Shown here in pieces: positions 2,591 to 34,877 of a stretch of DNA of 35,038 nt. Position 1 is the first letter of the stretch. Every line of letters starts with the position of its first letter. Source of the stretch: Cyanobium sp. FGCU52 (GTDB lineage Bacteria; Cyanobacteriota; Cyanobacteriia; PCC-6307; Cyanobiaceae); contig JANWUS010000008.1 of the NCBI GenBank assembly GCA_024958715.1, forward strand, positions 1 through 35,038, written 5' to 3'. The notes beneath the pieces are model-generated. The model searched no databases and was not told the origin of the DNA. It saw nothing but the letters and a program-made list of their open reading frames with translations. A program made the position numbers and the translations under genes.

Positions 2591-4894
2591 TCAGCCGACC
2601 GCAATCATGCGGGCCAGGAAGAAGGACCACGTGGTCGCGATACCGCCCAGCAGGTAGTGGGCGACGCCGACGGCACGGCCTTGGGTGATGGAGAGCGCCC
2701 GCGGCTGAATGGCGGGGGCAACCTTCAGCTTGTTGTGAGCCCAGACGATGGACTCGATGAGCTCCTGCCAGTAGCCGCGGCCGCTGAACAGGAACATCAG
2801 GCTGAAGGCCCAGACGAAGTGGGCACCCAGGAACATCAGGCCATAGGCACTGGAGCTCGAGCCGTAGCTGTTGATCACCTGTGCGGCCTGGGCCCAGAGG
2901 AAGTCACGCAGCCAGCCATTGATGGTGATGGCGCTCTGCGCGAAGTTGCCATTGGTGATGTGCTGGACGGTTCCGTCGGCATTGACGGTGCCCCACACAT
3001 CGCTCTGCATCTTCCAGCTGAAGTGGAAGATGACGATCGACAGGGAGTTGTACATCCAGAACAGGCCGAGGAACACGTGGTCCCAGGCCGACACCTGGCA
3101 GGTGCCGCCACGGCCGGGGCCGTCGCAGGGGAAGCGGAAGCCCAGGTTCGCCTTGTCGGGGACGAGGCGGGAGCTGCGGCTGTAGAGCACACCCTTCAGC
3201 AGGATCAGCACGGTGACGTGGATCGTGAAGGCGTGGATGTGGTGCACCATGAAGTCGGCCGTTCCCAGGGGAATCGGCGCAGCGGCAACCTTGCCCCCCA
3301 CGGCCACCACGGCACCGTTGAACACCTCGCTCACACCCGCGAGGGCGTTGGGAGCGGTGGTGCCGGCGGCAGCGGCGTGCAGGCCCTGGATCCACTGGGC
3401 GAAGACGGGCTTCAGCTGGATCGCGGTGTCGCTGAACATGTCCTGGGGCCGGCCCAGGGCACGCATGGTGTCGTTATGGATGTAGAGGCCGAAGCTGTGG
3501 AAGCCGAGCCAGATGCACACCCAGTTGAGGTGGCTGATCAGGGCATCGCGAGCCTTGAGCACACGGTCGAGCACGTTGTCGACGTGCTTGGCCGGGTCGT
3601 AGTCGCGGACCATGGCGATGGCGGCGTGAGCGCCGGCGCCGACGATCAGGAAGCCACCGATCCACACGTGGTGGGTGAACAGCGAGAGCTGGGTGGCGTA
3701 GCTGACACCGATGTACGGATACGGAGGCATCGCGTACATGTGGTGGGCGACGATGATCGACAGGGAGCCGAGCAGCGCCAGGTTCACGGCCAGCTGGGCA
3801 TGCCAGGAGGTGGTCATGAACTCGAACAGGCCGTTGTGGCCGTTCGGAGCGGGGAACAGCAGGGGATCACCCTTCTGACCCTCGAGGATCTCCTTGATGC
3901 TGTGGCCGATGCCCCAGTTGGTGCGGTACATGTGGCCCGCCACGATGAACAGCACCGCGATCGCCAGGTGGTGATGGGCGATGTCCGTCATCCAGAGGCT
4001 GCCGGTGACAGGATTCAACCCACCTTTGAAGGTGAGGAAATCGCTGTAGGCGGCCCAGTTGCCGGAGAAGAAGGCGGAGATGCCAGCGCCGAAACCGGGG
4101 AACAGCTGGGCGAGCAGGTCCTGATTCAGGAACTCGTGGGGCAGCGGAATGTCGGCCACCGAGGCGATGGTCTTGCCGTTGAGCACCAGCGGCTTGCCGG
4201 CGTCGATGGCATCCATCAGCTGCGTGGTGGGCAGCGACACGTGCAGGAGGTGCCCCGTCCAGGACAGGGAACCCAGACCCAGCAGACCGGCCAGATGGTG
4301 GTTGAGCATCGACTCAACGTTCTGGAACCACTCGAGCTTGGGCGCTGCCTTGTGGTAGTGGAAGACGCCGGCGTTGAGCATCAGGCCGGCCATCACCAGA
4401 GCACCGATGGCGGTGCAGAGGAGCTGGAACTCATTGGTGTAGCCCCAGGCCCTCCACATGTGGAAAAGACCGGAGGTGATCTGAATGCCGTGGAAGCCGG
4501 CACCCACATCGCCGTTGAGAATTTCCTGGCCGAAGATCGGCCAGACCACCTGGGCACTGGGCTTGACGTGCAGGGGGTCGGCCAGCCAGCCGGAATAGTT
4601 GGAGAAGCGCGCTCCGTGATAGAAGGCGCCGCTCAGCCAGATGAAGATGACGGCCAGATGGCCGAAGTGAGCGCTGAAGATCTTCCGGGAGACCTCTTCG
4701 AGATCGCTCGTGTGGCTGTCGAAGTCGTGAGCGTTGGCGTGGAGGTTCCAAACCCAGGTGGTGGTTTTGGGACCTTTGGCCAGGGTGCGGTCGAAATGGC
4801 CGGGCTTTTCGAAAAGCTCGAACGTGGCCGGAACGGGGTTCCGGTCGACCAGCTCCTTGGCTGTTTTCCCACGCTCTGGTGGGCTGATGGTCAT
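2591..4894 (-). CDS. psaA: Photosystem I P700 chlorophyll a apoprotein A1 (PsaA)
   Basis: PsaA is the partner of PsaB in the photosystem I heterodimer and supplies the other half of the P700 and FX sites. The product is 767 residues, the length usual in marine and freshwater picocyanobacteria. It contains [12 protein letters not shown] (FX ligands), the histidine-rich membrane helices ([23 protein letters not shown]) and the C-terminal [19 protein letters not shown] chose the ATG at 4894 ([15 protein letters not shown]), which matches the family N-terminus and has a GAGGA ribosome-binding site eight bases upstream (4903-4907). The frame stays open another 43 codons to 5023, but that part is leader sequence. 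It is the first gene of psaAB, transcribed away from the gene at 5338. Confidence 0.99.
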
Positions 4895-5097
4895 CGAGAC
4901 GTTCCTCGAGGGACGGGGTCGAGGTGGAGGTCCACCCCTTCGACATCGGCGAGACCGGAGAACGGCTCCGCCTTTGCCGATGGGGCCCATGACGCAGGGT
5001 CCGCCGAGGCGGATGGCCGTCACGGGCGCCAGCCGGACAAGGGCAAAACCCTTGTCACGACTGGAGCTTTGGGCCCCGAAAGGGGACCGCTGGCGGA

Positions 5098-5151
5098 AGT
5101 ATAGGGGTCGAAAACAAGCGGATTCGGCCGCCAGTTACAAAGGTTCAATCC
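5098..5151 (-). promoter_or_regulatory. Candidate psaA promoter with HLR1-like (RpaB) half-site
   Basis: On the minus strand a TATACT hexamer (5103-5098) could be the -10 box, placing the start of transcription near 5091 and leaving a leader of about 200 bases. No good -35 box is at the right distance. About 31-48 bases upstream of it lies GTTACAAA (5134-5141 on the plus strand), followed by GG and a degraded second repeat. GTTACAAA fits one unit of the HLR1 direct repeat that RpaB binds at photosystem genes, including psaA, in other cyanobacteria. The second unit does not fit well, so this is suggestive only. Confidence 0.35.
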
Positions 5152-8529: not shown

Positions 8530-8603
8530 TCGGGATGACAGGATTCGAACCTGCGGCCCCTTCGTCCCGAACGAAGTGCGCTACCAAGCTGCGCTACATC
8601 CCG
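8530..8603 (-). tRNA. trnP-CGG: tRNA-Pro (anticodon CGG)
   Basis: Read on the minus strand, the 74 bases fold as a complete cloverleaf: seven perfect acceptor pairs (CGGGATG with CATCCCG), a D arm GCGCAGCTTGGTAGCGC, an anticodon stem CTTCG/CGAAG with loop TTCGGGA, and a T arm with loop TTCGAAT. The anticodon is CGG, reading the proline codon CCG. The C1-G72 end pair is usual for bacterial proline tRNA and the discriminator base is A. CCA is not encoded. A TAAAGT hexamer (minus strand, 8617-8612) lies just upstream and could be its -10 box. Confidence 0.97.
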
Positions 8604-16276: not shown

Positions 16277-16329
16277 CGCCTTCCCGGCGGCGGAACTGCC
16301 AGAGTGGATTCCACATCCGGCATTCCACC

Positions 16330-16686
16330 GTGCCCAGGGGCCACAGCCTGCGCATCACCGCCGCCGCCGCGGCGGAACTCAGCCGCCAGGCCGCCGTGGC
16401 CGGCACCCCCGGTCTGATGCATCTCGACCTGCTGGAGGGCAGCTGCGAGCGCTGGGCGATCCGTCTGCGACCCGGCCACCTGGCGGGAACCCCGGTGGCC
16501 CGGGCCGATGGCGTCACCCTGCACGCCCCTCCCGAGCAGACCGCGCTGCTGGCGGGACTGCAGCTCGACTACAAGGGGGATCTCAGCGGCGGCGGTTTCC
16601 TGGTGCGGGCAGCCGAGGGTGTCGTCACCTGCCCCTGCGGCTCCGCCTTCAGCCGCTCCCCTGGACGGGGGACGGCGACCCAGTAA
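16330..16686 (+). CDS. IscA/HesB-like iron-sulfur protein, atypical
   Basis: This 118-residue protein resembles A-type iron-sulfur carriers (IscA, SufA, HesB), which pass 2Fe-2S or 4Fe-4S clusters to target enzymes. The C-terminal half is clear: LDYKGDLSGGGFLVRA followed by CPCGSAF, matching the CXCG pair of the family. The first ligand cysteine, normally in a GGGCSG context, appears here only as LLEGSCERW, so the glycine-rich loop is missing. It may be a divergent cyanobacterial branch with changed cluster chemistry. The start is GTG 16330, matching the family start (LRITAAAAAEL). It ends 67 bases before rpsL; the TAA stop overlaps a possible -10 box (TAAGGT, 16684-16689) for the translation operon. 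Confidence 0.8.
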   Translation: MPRGHSLRITAAAAAELSRQAAVAGTPGLMHLDLLEGSCERWAIRLRPGHLAGTPVARADGVTLHAPPEQTALLAGLQLDYKGDLSGGGFLVRAAEGVVTCPCGSAFSRSPGRGTATQ

Positions 16687-16705
16687 GGTGTCGGTTTGTC
16701 GAAAT

Positions 16706-16723
16706 CGGTCGGACGTCCGACCG
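16706..16723. promoter_or_regulatory. Perfect 18-bp palindrome upstream of rpsL
   Basis: CGGTCGGACGTCCGACCG is fully self-complementary and lies 30 bases before the rpsL start codon. As RNA it gives a 7-bp stem with ACGT loop. No T-run follows, so a simple terminator is unlikely. It lies just downstream of a possible promoter (TGGACG, 16 bases, TAAGGT at 16684-16689), so it would fall in the 5' leader of the operon, as an operator or an RNA hairpin. Confidence 0.6.
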
Positions 16724-16753
16724 GCACACTCCGACCAGCCCTAACGGCCCTCG

Positions 16754-17128
16754 ATGCCCACCATCCAGCAGCTGATCCGCACCGAGCGGCAGCGTCTCAC
16801 CCGCAAGACCAAGTCGCCCGCCCTGCGCGCCTGCCCTGAGCGTCGTGGCGTCTGCACCCGCGTCTATACCTCCACTCCCAAGAAGCCGAATTCCGCTCTG
16901 CGGAAGGTGGCCCGTGTCCGCCTCACCTCGGGCTTCGAGGTGACCGCGTACATCCCCGGCATCGGCCACAACCTGCAGGAGCACTCCGTGGTTCTGATCC
17001 GCGGCGGTCGCGTCAAGGATCTGCCCGGCGTCCGCTACCACATCATCCGCGGCACCCTGGACACCGCCGGCGTGAAGGACCGGCGCCAGGCCCGCTCCAA
17101 GTACGGCGCCAAGACCCCCAAGGCCTGA
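16754..17128 (+). CDS. rpsL: 30S ribosomal protein S12
   Basis: S12 lies at the decoding centre of the 30S subunit and controls accuracy. The 124 residues are of normal length, with the conserved [11 protein letters not shown] (K43, K44) and [14 protein letters not shown] (K88, D89) segments. Both lysines where streptomycin-resistance changes normally arise are wild type. It opens the str-type operon rpsL-rpsG-fusA-tuf-rpsJ, and a perfect palindrome lies in its leader. Confidence 0.99.
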
Positions 17129-17186
17129 TCCCCACGGGCGATGTCGGGCGACGGCCGTCCTCCGGCTCTGGATCCGCCTGAAGGAC

Positions 17187-17231
17187 TCTCCCGTCCCGTC
17201 CCCTTTTCCCCTTCCCTCTCCCTTCCGTTCC
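17187..17231 (+). promoter_or_regulatory. Pyrimidine-rich leader of rpsG
   Basis: The last 45 bases before the rpsG ATG contain only three purines (G at 17193, 17198 and 17227) and no Shine-Dalgarno sequence. Translation without Shine-Dalgarno, aided by ribosomal protein S1, is known for some cyanobacterial mRNAs such as rbcS; by analogy this tract may load the ribosome through S1. The function is inferred. Confidence 0.45.
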
Positions 17232-17702
17232 ATGTCCCGCCGCAACGCCGCCGAGAAGCGCCCGGTCCTGCCCGATCCCCAGTTCAACAGCCGTCTGGCG
17301 TCGATGATCGTGGCCCGGCTGATGAAGCACGGCAAGAAGTCCACGGCCCAGCGCATCCTTTCGGACGCCTTCACCCTGATCAACGAGCGCACGGGCGCCG
17401 ACCCGCTCGAACTGTTCGAGACGGCCGTGCGCAACGCCACCCCCCTGGTGGAAGTGCGTGCCCGCCGCGTCGGCGGTGCCACCTACCAGGTGCCGATGGA
17501 AGTGCGTCAGGAACGGGGCACGGCCATGGCCCTGCGCTGGCTGGTGAACTTCTCCCGGGCCCGCAACGGCCGCAGCATGGCTCAGAAACTGGCCGGTGAA
17601 CTGATGGATGCCGCCAATGAGGCCGGCAGCGCCGTCCGCAAGCGGGAGGAGACCCACAAGATGGCCGAGGCCAACAAGGCCTTCGCCCACTACCGCTACT
17701 GA
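17232..17702 (+). CDS. rpsG: 30S ribosomal protein S7
   Basis: S7 is a primary 16S rRNA-binding protein that nucleates the 30S head and borders the exit site. The 156-residue product starts [16 protein letters not shown] and carries the conserved [48 protein letters not shown] region. It follows rpsL after 103 bases, a gap that ends in a C/T-rich tract lacking a Shine-Dalgarno. In E. coli S7 is the autoregulator of the str operon; whether that holds here cannot be seen. Confidence 0.99.
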
Positions 17703-17730: not shown

Positions 17731-17784
17731 GGTCCGGCCTGGCGGACCGGGCACCGCCGGTCTGTAGAGTAACGCCCGTTTTTT
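17731..17784 (+). other. Structured rpsG-fusA spacer with T-run
   Basis: The spacer holds a hairpin GGTCCG/CGGACC (17731-17736 and 17743-17748). It also has a longer-range pairing CGGGC (17748-17752) with GCCCG (17774-17778), followed at once by six T residues (17779-17784). The second pairing has a 21-base loop, so it is a weak terminator at best. The two pairings share base 17748 and could compete, as in an attenuator. This is a reading of the sequence only; no folding was computed. Confidence 0.35.
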
Positions 17785-33383: not shown

Positions 33384-34877
33384 TCAGAAAAACACGATCT
33401 GGGGGGTTCCCACAACATTTTGGCCTGCAAGTCCGACAAGCGTGGCAAACTTATTACTGTTATAGAAAAGATCCAGATCGAGACCGTTATTGGCCTGCGA
33501 GAGCAGACCAGGAGTAGTAAAGACCGCATCCTCAAGCTGAATGGTGCAGCTGCTGCTAAAGCCTCTGACGGTATCAACGGAAGCAAAATCCGAGAATACG
33601 ATGGCATCGTCACCGCCGTTTGTGGTGATGTCGTCGTTGCCACCACCGCCGGCAATCCATTCCTTGTCAGAAGTACCCGTGATGGTGTCCGCACCGGTTC
33701 CGCCCACCTGGAGAGCGACGTACGCGACGCCGTTGACGGTATTAGTGCCGAAGGTCAGCACGGAGTTGGGGGTGGAGATTTGGTTCAACACGGCAAGGCC
33801 ACCGTTGAAGGCGTTGAACTCGATGACGAGGTTGGCAAGGTTGGTGACTGATTGACCATTGCGTACAACGACGCCGTAGCCGCCGTTGAGAAGTGTGAAT
33901 GTGTTGTTGGCTATGCCGAGCCCATTGGTGGGATCAGGATCTGTCGGGAAAGTGGAGGGAAGATCGAGGTTCTGAAGATCGAGATAGGCACCTTGCTCGA
34001 ATGTATTTTCGGTCACGCTTCCCTTAACCCGCGAGAGCGTCTCACCGGCGGTGCGAATGCCCTGGTTAGCAGTGCGGGTGAAGGTGTTTTTGAAGATGGT
34101 GACGTTGGTCTCGAAGCCACTGGCCCCCCAGAGGGAGAGGGCGTTGCGATAGCCGGCCTCATCGAACGTGGAATTGGTGACGGTGATCTGGGGTCCATTG
34201 GCCAGCAGGAACGCCGAACCGTAGCCGGTGGGGTTGTTGGCGAAATAGGTGCCGCCTCCCTGACCGGTGAGAGCTACGTTGATCTTGTTGAACGTGAGGC
34301 TGGTTCCGACGGCCACATCCATGTAGTTGCCATACGGGGCTCCTCCGTTATTTCCTACAGCGCCGGTGTGCACACCGGCGAAGGTCACACCATCGAGGGA
34401 GACGGTGCCGATCCGGCTGGTGATGCCAGTCAGGCCGCCAGCACCGTATTGCTTAACCCCCGACTGGAGGATGTAGCCGCTTCCATTGGGGGACGTGTAG
34501 CCTGTGAACACTTCCCCATAGGAAAGCCGAAGTCTATTGATCGTGATCCCAACGGGAACGCCGGAACTTCTGTCGCTTTGATTGGTGTAGATCCGGGCGT
34601 TGCCGGTAATGATGGTGCTGATCGTGGGGTCGTTGCTACTGCCGGAACCTGAGAAGGTGAGAGTCTTGGCACCGAAACGGGCGAAGGTGTTGGGATTGCG
34701 GAGCGCGAGCGGATCCGGATTAGGGATCGGAGTTAAGACGGTGTCGGAGCTGCGGATGTCGTACAGGCCCGTGCCGATGTCGATCGTCTGATTGTTGAGG
34801 GCACCTGAGGTGGCAGCTCTGATGGCCAAGCGTAAATTATTGTAGTTGACGCTGCCGGTCGTGATGAACTGGGCCAT
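33384..34877 (-). CDS. Beta-helix protein with C-terminal RTX repeats
   Basis: A 497-residue protein unlike its neighbours. Residues about 40-390 are Asn/Thr/Gly-rich with recurring short strands (NSTFDEAG, IFKNTFTRT, VTENTFEQ, IANNTFTLLNGG, IEFNAFNGG), typical of a right-handed parallel beta-helix. Residues 392-428 contain three RTX-type calcium nonapeptide units (GGTGADTIT, GGGGNDDIT, NGGDDAIVF). A terminal domain (DTVRGFSSSCTIQLED...GTPQIVFF) follows, as in type I secreted proteins. There is no N-terminal signal peptide, which fits type I export. It is probably a surface or extracellular protein; the target is unknown. G+C is lower than elsewhere (45% in 33421-33480, 57% in 33901-33960 by my count), suggesting accessory origin. 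No Shine-Dalgarno is obvious before ATG 34877. Confidence 0.85.
   Translation of the reverse strand: MAQFITTGSVNYNNLRLAIRAATSGALNNQTIDIGTGLYDIRSSDTVLTPIPNPDPLALRNPNTFARFGAKTLTFSGSGSSNDPTISTIITGNARIYTNQSDRSSGVPVGITINRLRLSYGEVFTGYTSPNGSGYILQSGVKQYGAGGLTGITSRIGTVSLDGVTFAGVHTGAVGNNGGAPYGNYMDVAVGTSLTFNKINVALTGQGGGTYFANNPTGYGSAFLLANGPQITVTNSTFDEAGYRNALSLWGASGFETNVTIFKNTFTRTANQGIRTAGETLSRVKGSVTENTFEQGAYLDLQNLDLPSTFPTDPDPTNGLGIANNTFTLLNGGYGVVVRNGQSVTNLANLVIEFNAFNGGLAVLNQISTPNSVLTFGTNTVNGVAYVALQVGGTGADTITGTSDKEWIAGGGGNDDITTNGGDDAIVFSDFASVDTVRGFSSSCTIQLEDAVFTTPGLLSQANNGLDLDLFYNSNKFATLVGLAGQNVVGTPQIVFF

Follow-up and report, generated by a model that had tools for sequence, protein, structure and literature searches.

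What is the role of a perfect palindrome that lies directly in front of the first gene of a translation operon? In the window, by which we mean the whole stretch of 35,038 nucleotides of Cyanobium sp. FGCU52 analysed here, the 18-bp sequence CGGTCGGACGTCCGACCG occupies positions 16706-16723, 30 nt upstream of the rpsL ATG (16754). A first-pass annotation, made from the letters alone, had described it as free of mismatches and as lying 30 bases before rpsL; position, sequence and distance proved exact, and the gene is identified by PF00164. A comparison of related leaders indicates that the palindrome is one species' form of a small RNA hairpin at the start of the rpsL mRNA.

The annotation had also held that chance is unlikely to give such a palindrome. 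Taken over the whole window (composition 68% GC), this claims too much: first-order Markov copies of the window contain on average 0.47 perfect palindromes of at least 18 bp, compared to two observed. The second one, CGCCGGTGTGCACACCGGCG, is 20 bp long (34361-34380) and located inside the span of a minus-strand ORF (33384-34877); the palindrome count, with this site included, is near the chance expectation for the composition of the window. Since 0.47 are expected and two were found in a GC-rich window, the perfection of a palindrome alone proves little, and the strong evidence for the site in front of rpsL is comparative. The features of the locus are the following:

16684..16689, + strand: putative -10 element TAAGGT of the rpsL promoter, assigned by the spacing of TANNNT to the box in relatives
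16694..16704, + strand: box GTTTGTCGAAA (family consensus GATTGTSGAAA), conserved and located at the predicted start of transcription or just behind it
about 16696, + strand: predicted transcription start, derived from promoter spacing
16705..16724, + strand: predicted RNA hairpin UCGGUCGG-ACGU-CCGACCGG, 8 bp and a tetraloop, based on conservation, covariation and the covariance model R1
16707-16712 and 16717-16722, + strand: arms of the conserved hairpin core, 6 pairs
16725..16753, + strand: leader tail from the hairpin to the ATG, without a Shine-Dalgarno sequence and of different length among relatives
16754..17128, + strand: rpsL, ribosomal protein S12 (PF00164, E 2.3e-40)
17232..17702, + strand: rpsG, ribosomal protein S7, the next gene and possible source of the leader ligand (PF00177, E 1.7e-62)

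The hairpin, which includes the palindrome, has a predicted energy of -13.5 kcal/mol for a 26-nt stretch. By the usual gene order, the ORFs at 17783 and 19928 would presumably be fusA and tufA. A small upstream ORF (16330-16686), for which no Pfam match was found at 1e-5, ends with a TAA stop that forms the first three bases of the rpsL -10 element (16684-16686); L014 is among the relatives in which this ORF has an earlier in-frame stop and the promoter is retained. Elsewhere in the window, we found a psaA RNA leader (4891-5105, minus strand; RF01752, 121 bits) and a tRNA gene (8530-8603, minus strand), both of them ordinary.

Conservation of the hairpin in the picocyanobacteria

The first-pass annotation had suggested to compare the rpsL upstream regions of picocyanobacteria, with a lack of conservation in close relatives speaking against its reading. 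Instead, the hairpin turned out to be conserved across the genus of the window: rpsL is present in 40 of the 42 genomes searched, and the hairpin is kept in all 40. The sequence GATTGTCGAAA (with at most two changes) and then directly the hairpin were found in 38 of these 40 upstream regions; of the other two, L010 has an intact hairpin behind a changed box, and L015 has both box and hairpin further upstream.

Beyond the genus, the family, Cyanobiaceae by its GTDB name, which we take to be the picocyanobacteria, was searched with R1. The model matches 189 of 300 genomes (E ≤0.05, with about 15 chance matches expected) and 136 of the 197 genomes that are at least 90% complete. No match was obtained in 111 of the 300. 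For 26 of these 300 genomes the search for rpsL itself gave no match, and the model overlooks divergent hairpins recognisable by eye, e.g. in L172 and L181. Among the matches listed, 107 (E ≤8.4e-4) could be checked, namely those with a known position of rpsL, and 106 of them share the strand of rpsL and precede it by 14-77 nt. The exception, in G173, is on another contig than rpsL, which in this genome starts at base 15 of its own contig. Among the rpsL relatives listed, the closest one with a name is a Vulcanococcus (Synechococcaceae according to NCBI).

In the genome of the window itself, R1 scores 37.5 bits at the hairpin, followed by the opposite strand of the same hairpin (15.7 bits) and two further weak places (15.5 and 15.1 bits), so that there is a single strong match. 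Seven family genomes have a second match away from rpsL (22.6-28 bits, E 0.004-0.05), which is in line with chance, and in G165 a match elsewhere outscores the one at rpsL.

In a class-wide draw, R1 matched 14 of 23 genomes of the family versus 5 of 172 others, and the five matches outside the family (E 0.016-0.042) are all away from the listed rpsL place. The nine unmatched family genomes belong to the genera g17 (seven), g10 (one) and g56 (one). Most g10 leaders have a shorter stem of the GGUC/GACC type, with poor pairing in L174, and the g56 leader has retained UGGUC/GACCA. Neither box nor hairpin was found in the g17 leaders (L216-L219, L221, L222 and L224) and in L038. To judge from AT-richness and one named relative (L038), g17 would represent high-light Prochlorococcus-like genomes; its spacers between rpsL and rpsG measure only 24-26 nt.

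For the comparisons below, upstream regions were taken from part of the 274 family genomes with rpsL, drawn from the best matches. This yielded 140 leaders; they come from 43 numbered genera and from three loci that lack a genus number, and at least four genomes are represented twice (L036/L117, L174/L210, L188/L211 and L202/L212). Hairpin counts omit L015, L137, which is at the start of a contig, and, for want of box and hairpin, L038 and the loci of g17. Automatically placed arms were misplaced or shifted in L172, L180, L175, L191, L196, L206 and several g47 loci.

RNA stem versus DNA dyad

For the palindrome, the first-pass annotation had left the choice between an operator for a dimeric regulator and an RNA hairpin. 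Within a 24-nt window and with G-U pairs allowed, a stem of at least five consecutive pairs was found in 80 of 88 distinct leaders; for the same 88, two windows further upstream gave 34 and 26 such stems, and shuffled sequences 24. Among 24 distinct pairs of arms, double changes occur in five of the six pairs (shuffle mean 2.2; three of 500 shuffles as high) and in nine cells (shuffle 3.2; 0/500), and the covariation score is 0.261 versus 0.197 in shuffled arms (1/500). This set omits L125, L126, L131, L143, L175, L191, L196 and L206, whose hairpins are shifted or different, and contains three arms set by hand (L172, L180 and L214). If the partner is slid by one column, pairing falls from 85% to about 43%. 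On a 75-row alignment of chosen sequences, with those of shifted register excluded, double-change pairs (1/500) and cells (2/500) again stand out, but the score is weak (83/500). A larger model alignment, A2, covers 85 loci with 114 matches, of which at least 36 are a second match within the locus; it gave 2/500 for pairs, 1/500 for cells and a weak 38/500 for the score, and is only a rough check because it includes matches on the opposite strand and elsewhere. RNAalifold recovered three of the six pairs on a MAFFT alignment, which has register errors.

Single changes are informative about the strand. With the same eight loci omitted, the outer four pairs show 37 G-U cells, 2 A-C cells and 8 other mismatches, an excess of G-U as selection on the sense RNA would produce. 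The picture reverses at the inner two pairs (4 G-U, 11 A-C and 17 other mismatches), from which we conclude that the top of the stem is often open; closing pair 6 alone has 11 A-C versus 3 G-U cells. Over all six pairs, this amounts to 41 G-U versus 13 A-C cells, with 25 further mismatched cells. Because many G-U cells were inherited together, separate cases within genera weigh more. U-A and U-G both occur in g5, g31 and g1, the last of which also has C-G (L020, L031 and again L015); g35 has U-G and C-G, and g48 G-U and A-U. Pair 4 (C-G) is identical in all 24 arm combinations, while the loop and the inner pairs change. Pair 3 is mismatched in L128-L130, L145 and L170, other leaders have shorter stems, and in g47, g54, g24 and g44 the hairpin is shifted or different. 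Taken with the variable loop, the covariation and the G-U-type changes of the outer pairs bear out the RNA half of the annotation's proposal: the leader almost certainly contains a selected RNA hairpin.

The other half, a DNA operator for a dimeric transcription factor, could appeal to the perfect dyad in the window and to its place just downstream of the putative promoter. However, a perfect DNA palindrome is present in only 29 of the 140 leaders (all of them counted) and in 7 of 44 genus groups, the spacing between the arms varies from 3 to 7 nt, and the outer pairs show the G-U-type asymmetry. The genome also lacks an excess of related sites: near-copies of CGGTCGGACGTCCGACCG with at most three changes number 7 versus 34 for the reversed control pattern, and a search for further copies, as proposed in the annotation, showed that the exact 18-mer occurs once in the 3.48 Mb. 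A dyad symmetry conserved at fixed spacing was thus not observed, and we reject the operator, which we consider very improbable. In viral contigs, we noticed one exact copy of the 18-mer with a T-run after it; no rpsL start was found at that locus.

A GC-rich hairpin in a leader also brings to mind a transcription attenuator or terminator. In agreement with the annotation, there is no T-run in the DNA, and hence no U-run after the stem, and we found no terminator-like site within 16300-17300 and no conserved alternative pairing of box and tail; lacking the U-run, this reading was rejected as hardly credible. When whole leaders were folded, 77 of 115 had the canonical hairpin in their best structure, and the leader of the window together with the gene start folds no better than shuffles (z -0.92). 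An outer helix of box and tail, seen in the minimum-energy fold of the window, was discarded, since exchanging the tails among 42 genus groups made no difference (-4.51 kcal/mol for real versus -4.49 kcal/mol for permuted combinations).

Promoter, box and the position of the hairpin

The architecture in the family is a -10 element, 4 nt, the box GATTGTSGAAA, 1-2 nt and the hairpin. TANNNT ends exactly 4 nt upstream of the box in all 132 distinct family leaders scored, a row being scored only if TANNNT occurred at 4 or 5 nt, and the gap between box and hairpin is nearly constant. By comparison, the distance from the hairpin to the ATG is 15 nt in many divergent genera and 13-14 or 16-55 nt elsewhere; in the genus of the window it ranges from 18 to 86 nt, with about 166 nt in L015. 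At this last locus the box ends 185 nt before the ATG, after the usual TAAGGT, and a GGCCGG/UCGGCC stem follows directly 3' of the box. By these spacings, the hairpin keeps its place relative to the promoter end of the leader, whereas its distance to the start codon is free.

The same distances bear on the idea that the hairpin helps to place the ribosome, i.e. that by ending about 15 nt before the ATG it aids initiation on an mRNA without a Shine-Dalgarno sequence. The value of exactly 15 nt in many divergent genera and the scarcity of Shine-Dalgarno-like 4-mers (3 of 140 family leaders) would fit. On the other hand, the 18-86 nt in the genus of the window and the roughly 166 nt in L015 do not, and other cyanobacteria are equally poor in such 4-mers (3 of 51) with no clear enrichment of hairpins behind the box (stems of at least five pairs in 13 of 47 leaders, with 15 in a window further upstream and 8 in shuffled sequences as controls). 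We therefore regard ribosome placing as improbable.

For 47 of the 51 other cyanobacteria, a promoter could be scored that consists of a TTGACA-like and a TATAAT-like element with a spacing of mostly 18 nt. A related box with the consensus YTGTTGAAA follows 7-15 nt after the -10 element in most of the 47, with a G at position 9 in 42. As this box follows their promoter, most of the cyanobacteria sampled would have it at the 5' end of the transcript, and it looks as if the window's family has added the hairpin.

Some further observations concern this region. In the rpsL promoter of the family (16670-16689 in the window), no TTGACA is conserved where one would usually be. Immediately 5' of the -10 element, some 14 nt with the pattern G....G.YGACCCAG are conserved over 43 genus groups and not so in the 47 other cyanobacteria; it may be an activator site or part of an extended -10 promoter. 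In L006, L007 and L008, which belong to the window's genus, the tail is lengthened to 78-86 nt and the hairpin remains at the promoter.

Possible functions and comparison with known systems

Because most of the picocyanobacterial relatives examined keep the hairpin, it is probably a control element of ribosome synthesis rather than a DNA switch or an accident. We consider it an even bet that the str operon has here a new ribosomal-protein leader, to which S7 or S12 might bind. According to this proposal, the hairpin would be part of the 5' UTR of the rpsL-rpsG mRNA, about 9 nt after the predicted start and directly behind the conserved box. Box and stem base (GGUC/GACC) would form a protein-binding site; the bound protein would most likely be a product of the str operon, S7 or S12, and, when in excess of rRNA, would lower translation or lifetime of the mRNA. 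Such a feedback step by an operon protein is plausible, if a shade short of an even chance. Promoter-like sequence is conserved directly upstream of box and hairpin, and the transcript start is a prediction.

A further regulon was looked for in the window's own genome and dismissed: there is one strong R1 match, and the promoter-box pattern is at control level (34 matches per strand versus 36 and 40 in controls). An operon-specific ligand fits both the single strong match and the lack of enrichment of the promoter-box pattern elsewhere, and the single match together with the conserved stem base favours a specific ligand in general. Some ribosomal leaders resemble the rRNA site of their ligand; a comparison of the leader with the 16S rRNA of one relative (L290), used as the 16S gene is missing from the window's own assembly, gave no local sequence similarity. 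To our knowledge, the ribosomal leaders described so far are more complex than a hairpin of 6 bp whose loop is free to vary. A bound protein would not shield the start site in every leader, as between 13 and about 166 nt separate the hairpin from the ATG.

This freedom of the distance keeps a function of the 5' end without any ligand a serious rival: the hairpin might protect the 5' end of the mRNA from nucleases or help RNA polymerase in early elongation, resulting in a steadily high output of the operon. In its favour, the element has a fixed place relative to the promoter at variable distance from the ATG, its loop is variable, and in most of the other cyanobacteria scored the box would lie within the initially transcribed sequence. 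A general stabiliser should, however, recur at highly expressed genes, whereas the genome of the window has one strong match and the strong matches of its relatives are at rpsL. Also, the sequence of the stem base is conserved beyond the needs of pairing, and the free 5' tail, at about 9 nt, exceeds what is usual for classical protection by a 5' stem-loop. We thus view a ligand-free element as a tentative possibility of some weight.

A more specific version of the ribosomal-protein leader would have two parts, the old 5'-terminal box and the hairpin added by the family, which together are recognised by S12, or by S7; in the latter case the S7 site would have left the rpsL-rpsG spacer for the mRNA 5' end. 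We consider this version unlikely but worth stating: if it were true, the loss of the leader in high-light Prochlorococcus-like genomes would mark a lost feedback on ribosome synthesis in streamlined cells. Kept in most of the picocyanobacterial family and absent in its streamlined branch, the leader offers a testable handle on how ribosomal proteins are matched to rRNA, and it is a place where constructs in picocyanobacterial strains should not be cut.

How does the element compare with known systems? The str operon of E. coli is controlled by S7 through the spacer between rpsL and rpsG. A review of 2024 considers a similar mechanism likely in cyanobacteria, citing Meng et al. 1989 for a similar spacer (PMC10931766). 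In the literature compared here, this is the only control site of the str operon proposed for cyanobacteria; it is based on structural similarity and lies elsewhere than ours (PMC10931766). The operon and the proposed logic of feedback by an operon product are the same; unlike the E. coli site, the element described here is upstream of rpsL, at the start of the transcript, and not in the spacer. The spacers of 91 family loci, viewed by eye, are 24-198 nt long and show no obvious conservation.

Searched against Rfam, the leader of the window hit no family at the gathering cut-off and had only a chance-level match to a Pseudomonas sRNA (E 5.3). Among the titles and abstract beginnings listed, no picocyanobacterial rpsL leader is named, and no leader protein S12 is named in the literature compared here. 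The main texts of two Synechococcus elongatus transcriptome papers, in the parts consulted, mention neither rpsL nor rps12 (PMC3219970, PMC6091082). The rpsL motif of Candidatus Pelagibacter ubique, reported from Pelagibacter and marine metagenomes only, is likewise a structured RNA in the 5' UTR of rpsL with a proposed role in the control of ribosomal protein genes and a ligand that is unknown (PMC2704228). It differs in architecture, having a bulged P1 and a three-stem junction, whereas we found one hairpin of 6-8 bp plus a box.

Ribosomal leaders have also been sought in four model cyanobacteria, whose genomes we take to lie outside the hairpin-bearing family. Leaders of rpl10 and rps2 were predicted there, with neither rpsL nor rps12 in the main text as consulted (PMC2662882); our candidate resembles these two in being a ribosomal leader predicted for cyanobacteria. 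A survey of 20 ribosomal leader candidates includes no S12, S7 or cyanobacterial leader in its Table 1 (PMC7247131). The properties by which such r-leaders are recognised, a covarying structure consistently upstream of a ribosomal protein gene (PMC7247131), recur in the picocyanobacterial element: it lies upstream of rpsL in 106 of the 107 checked matches and 40 of 40 genus genomes with rpsL, and its conserved secondary structure is supported by double changes, with the score alone being weak on the larger alignments.
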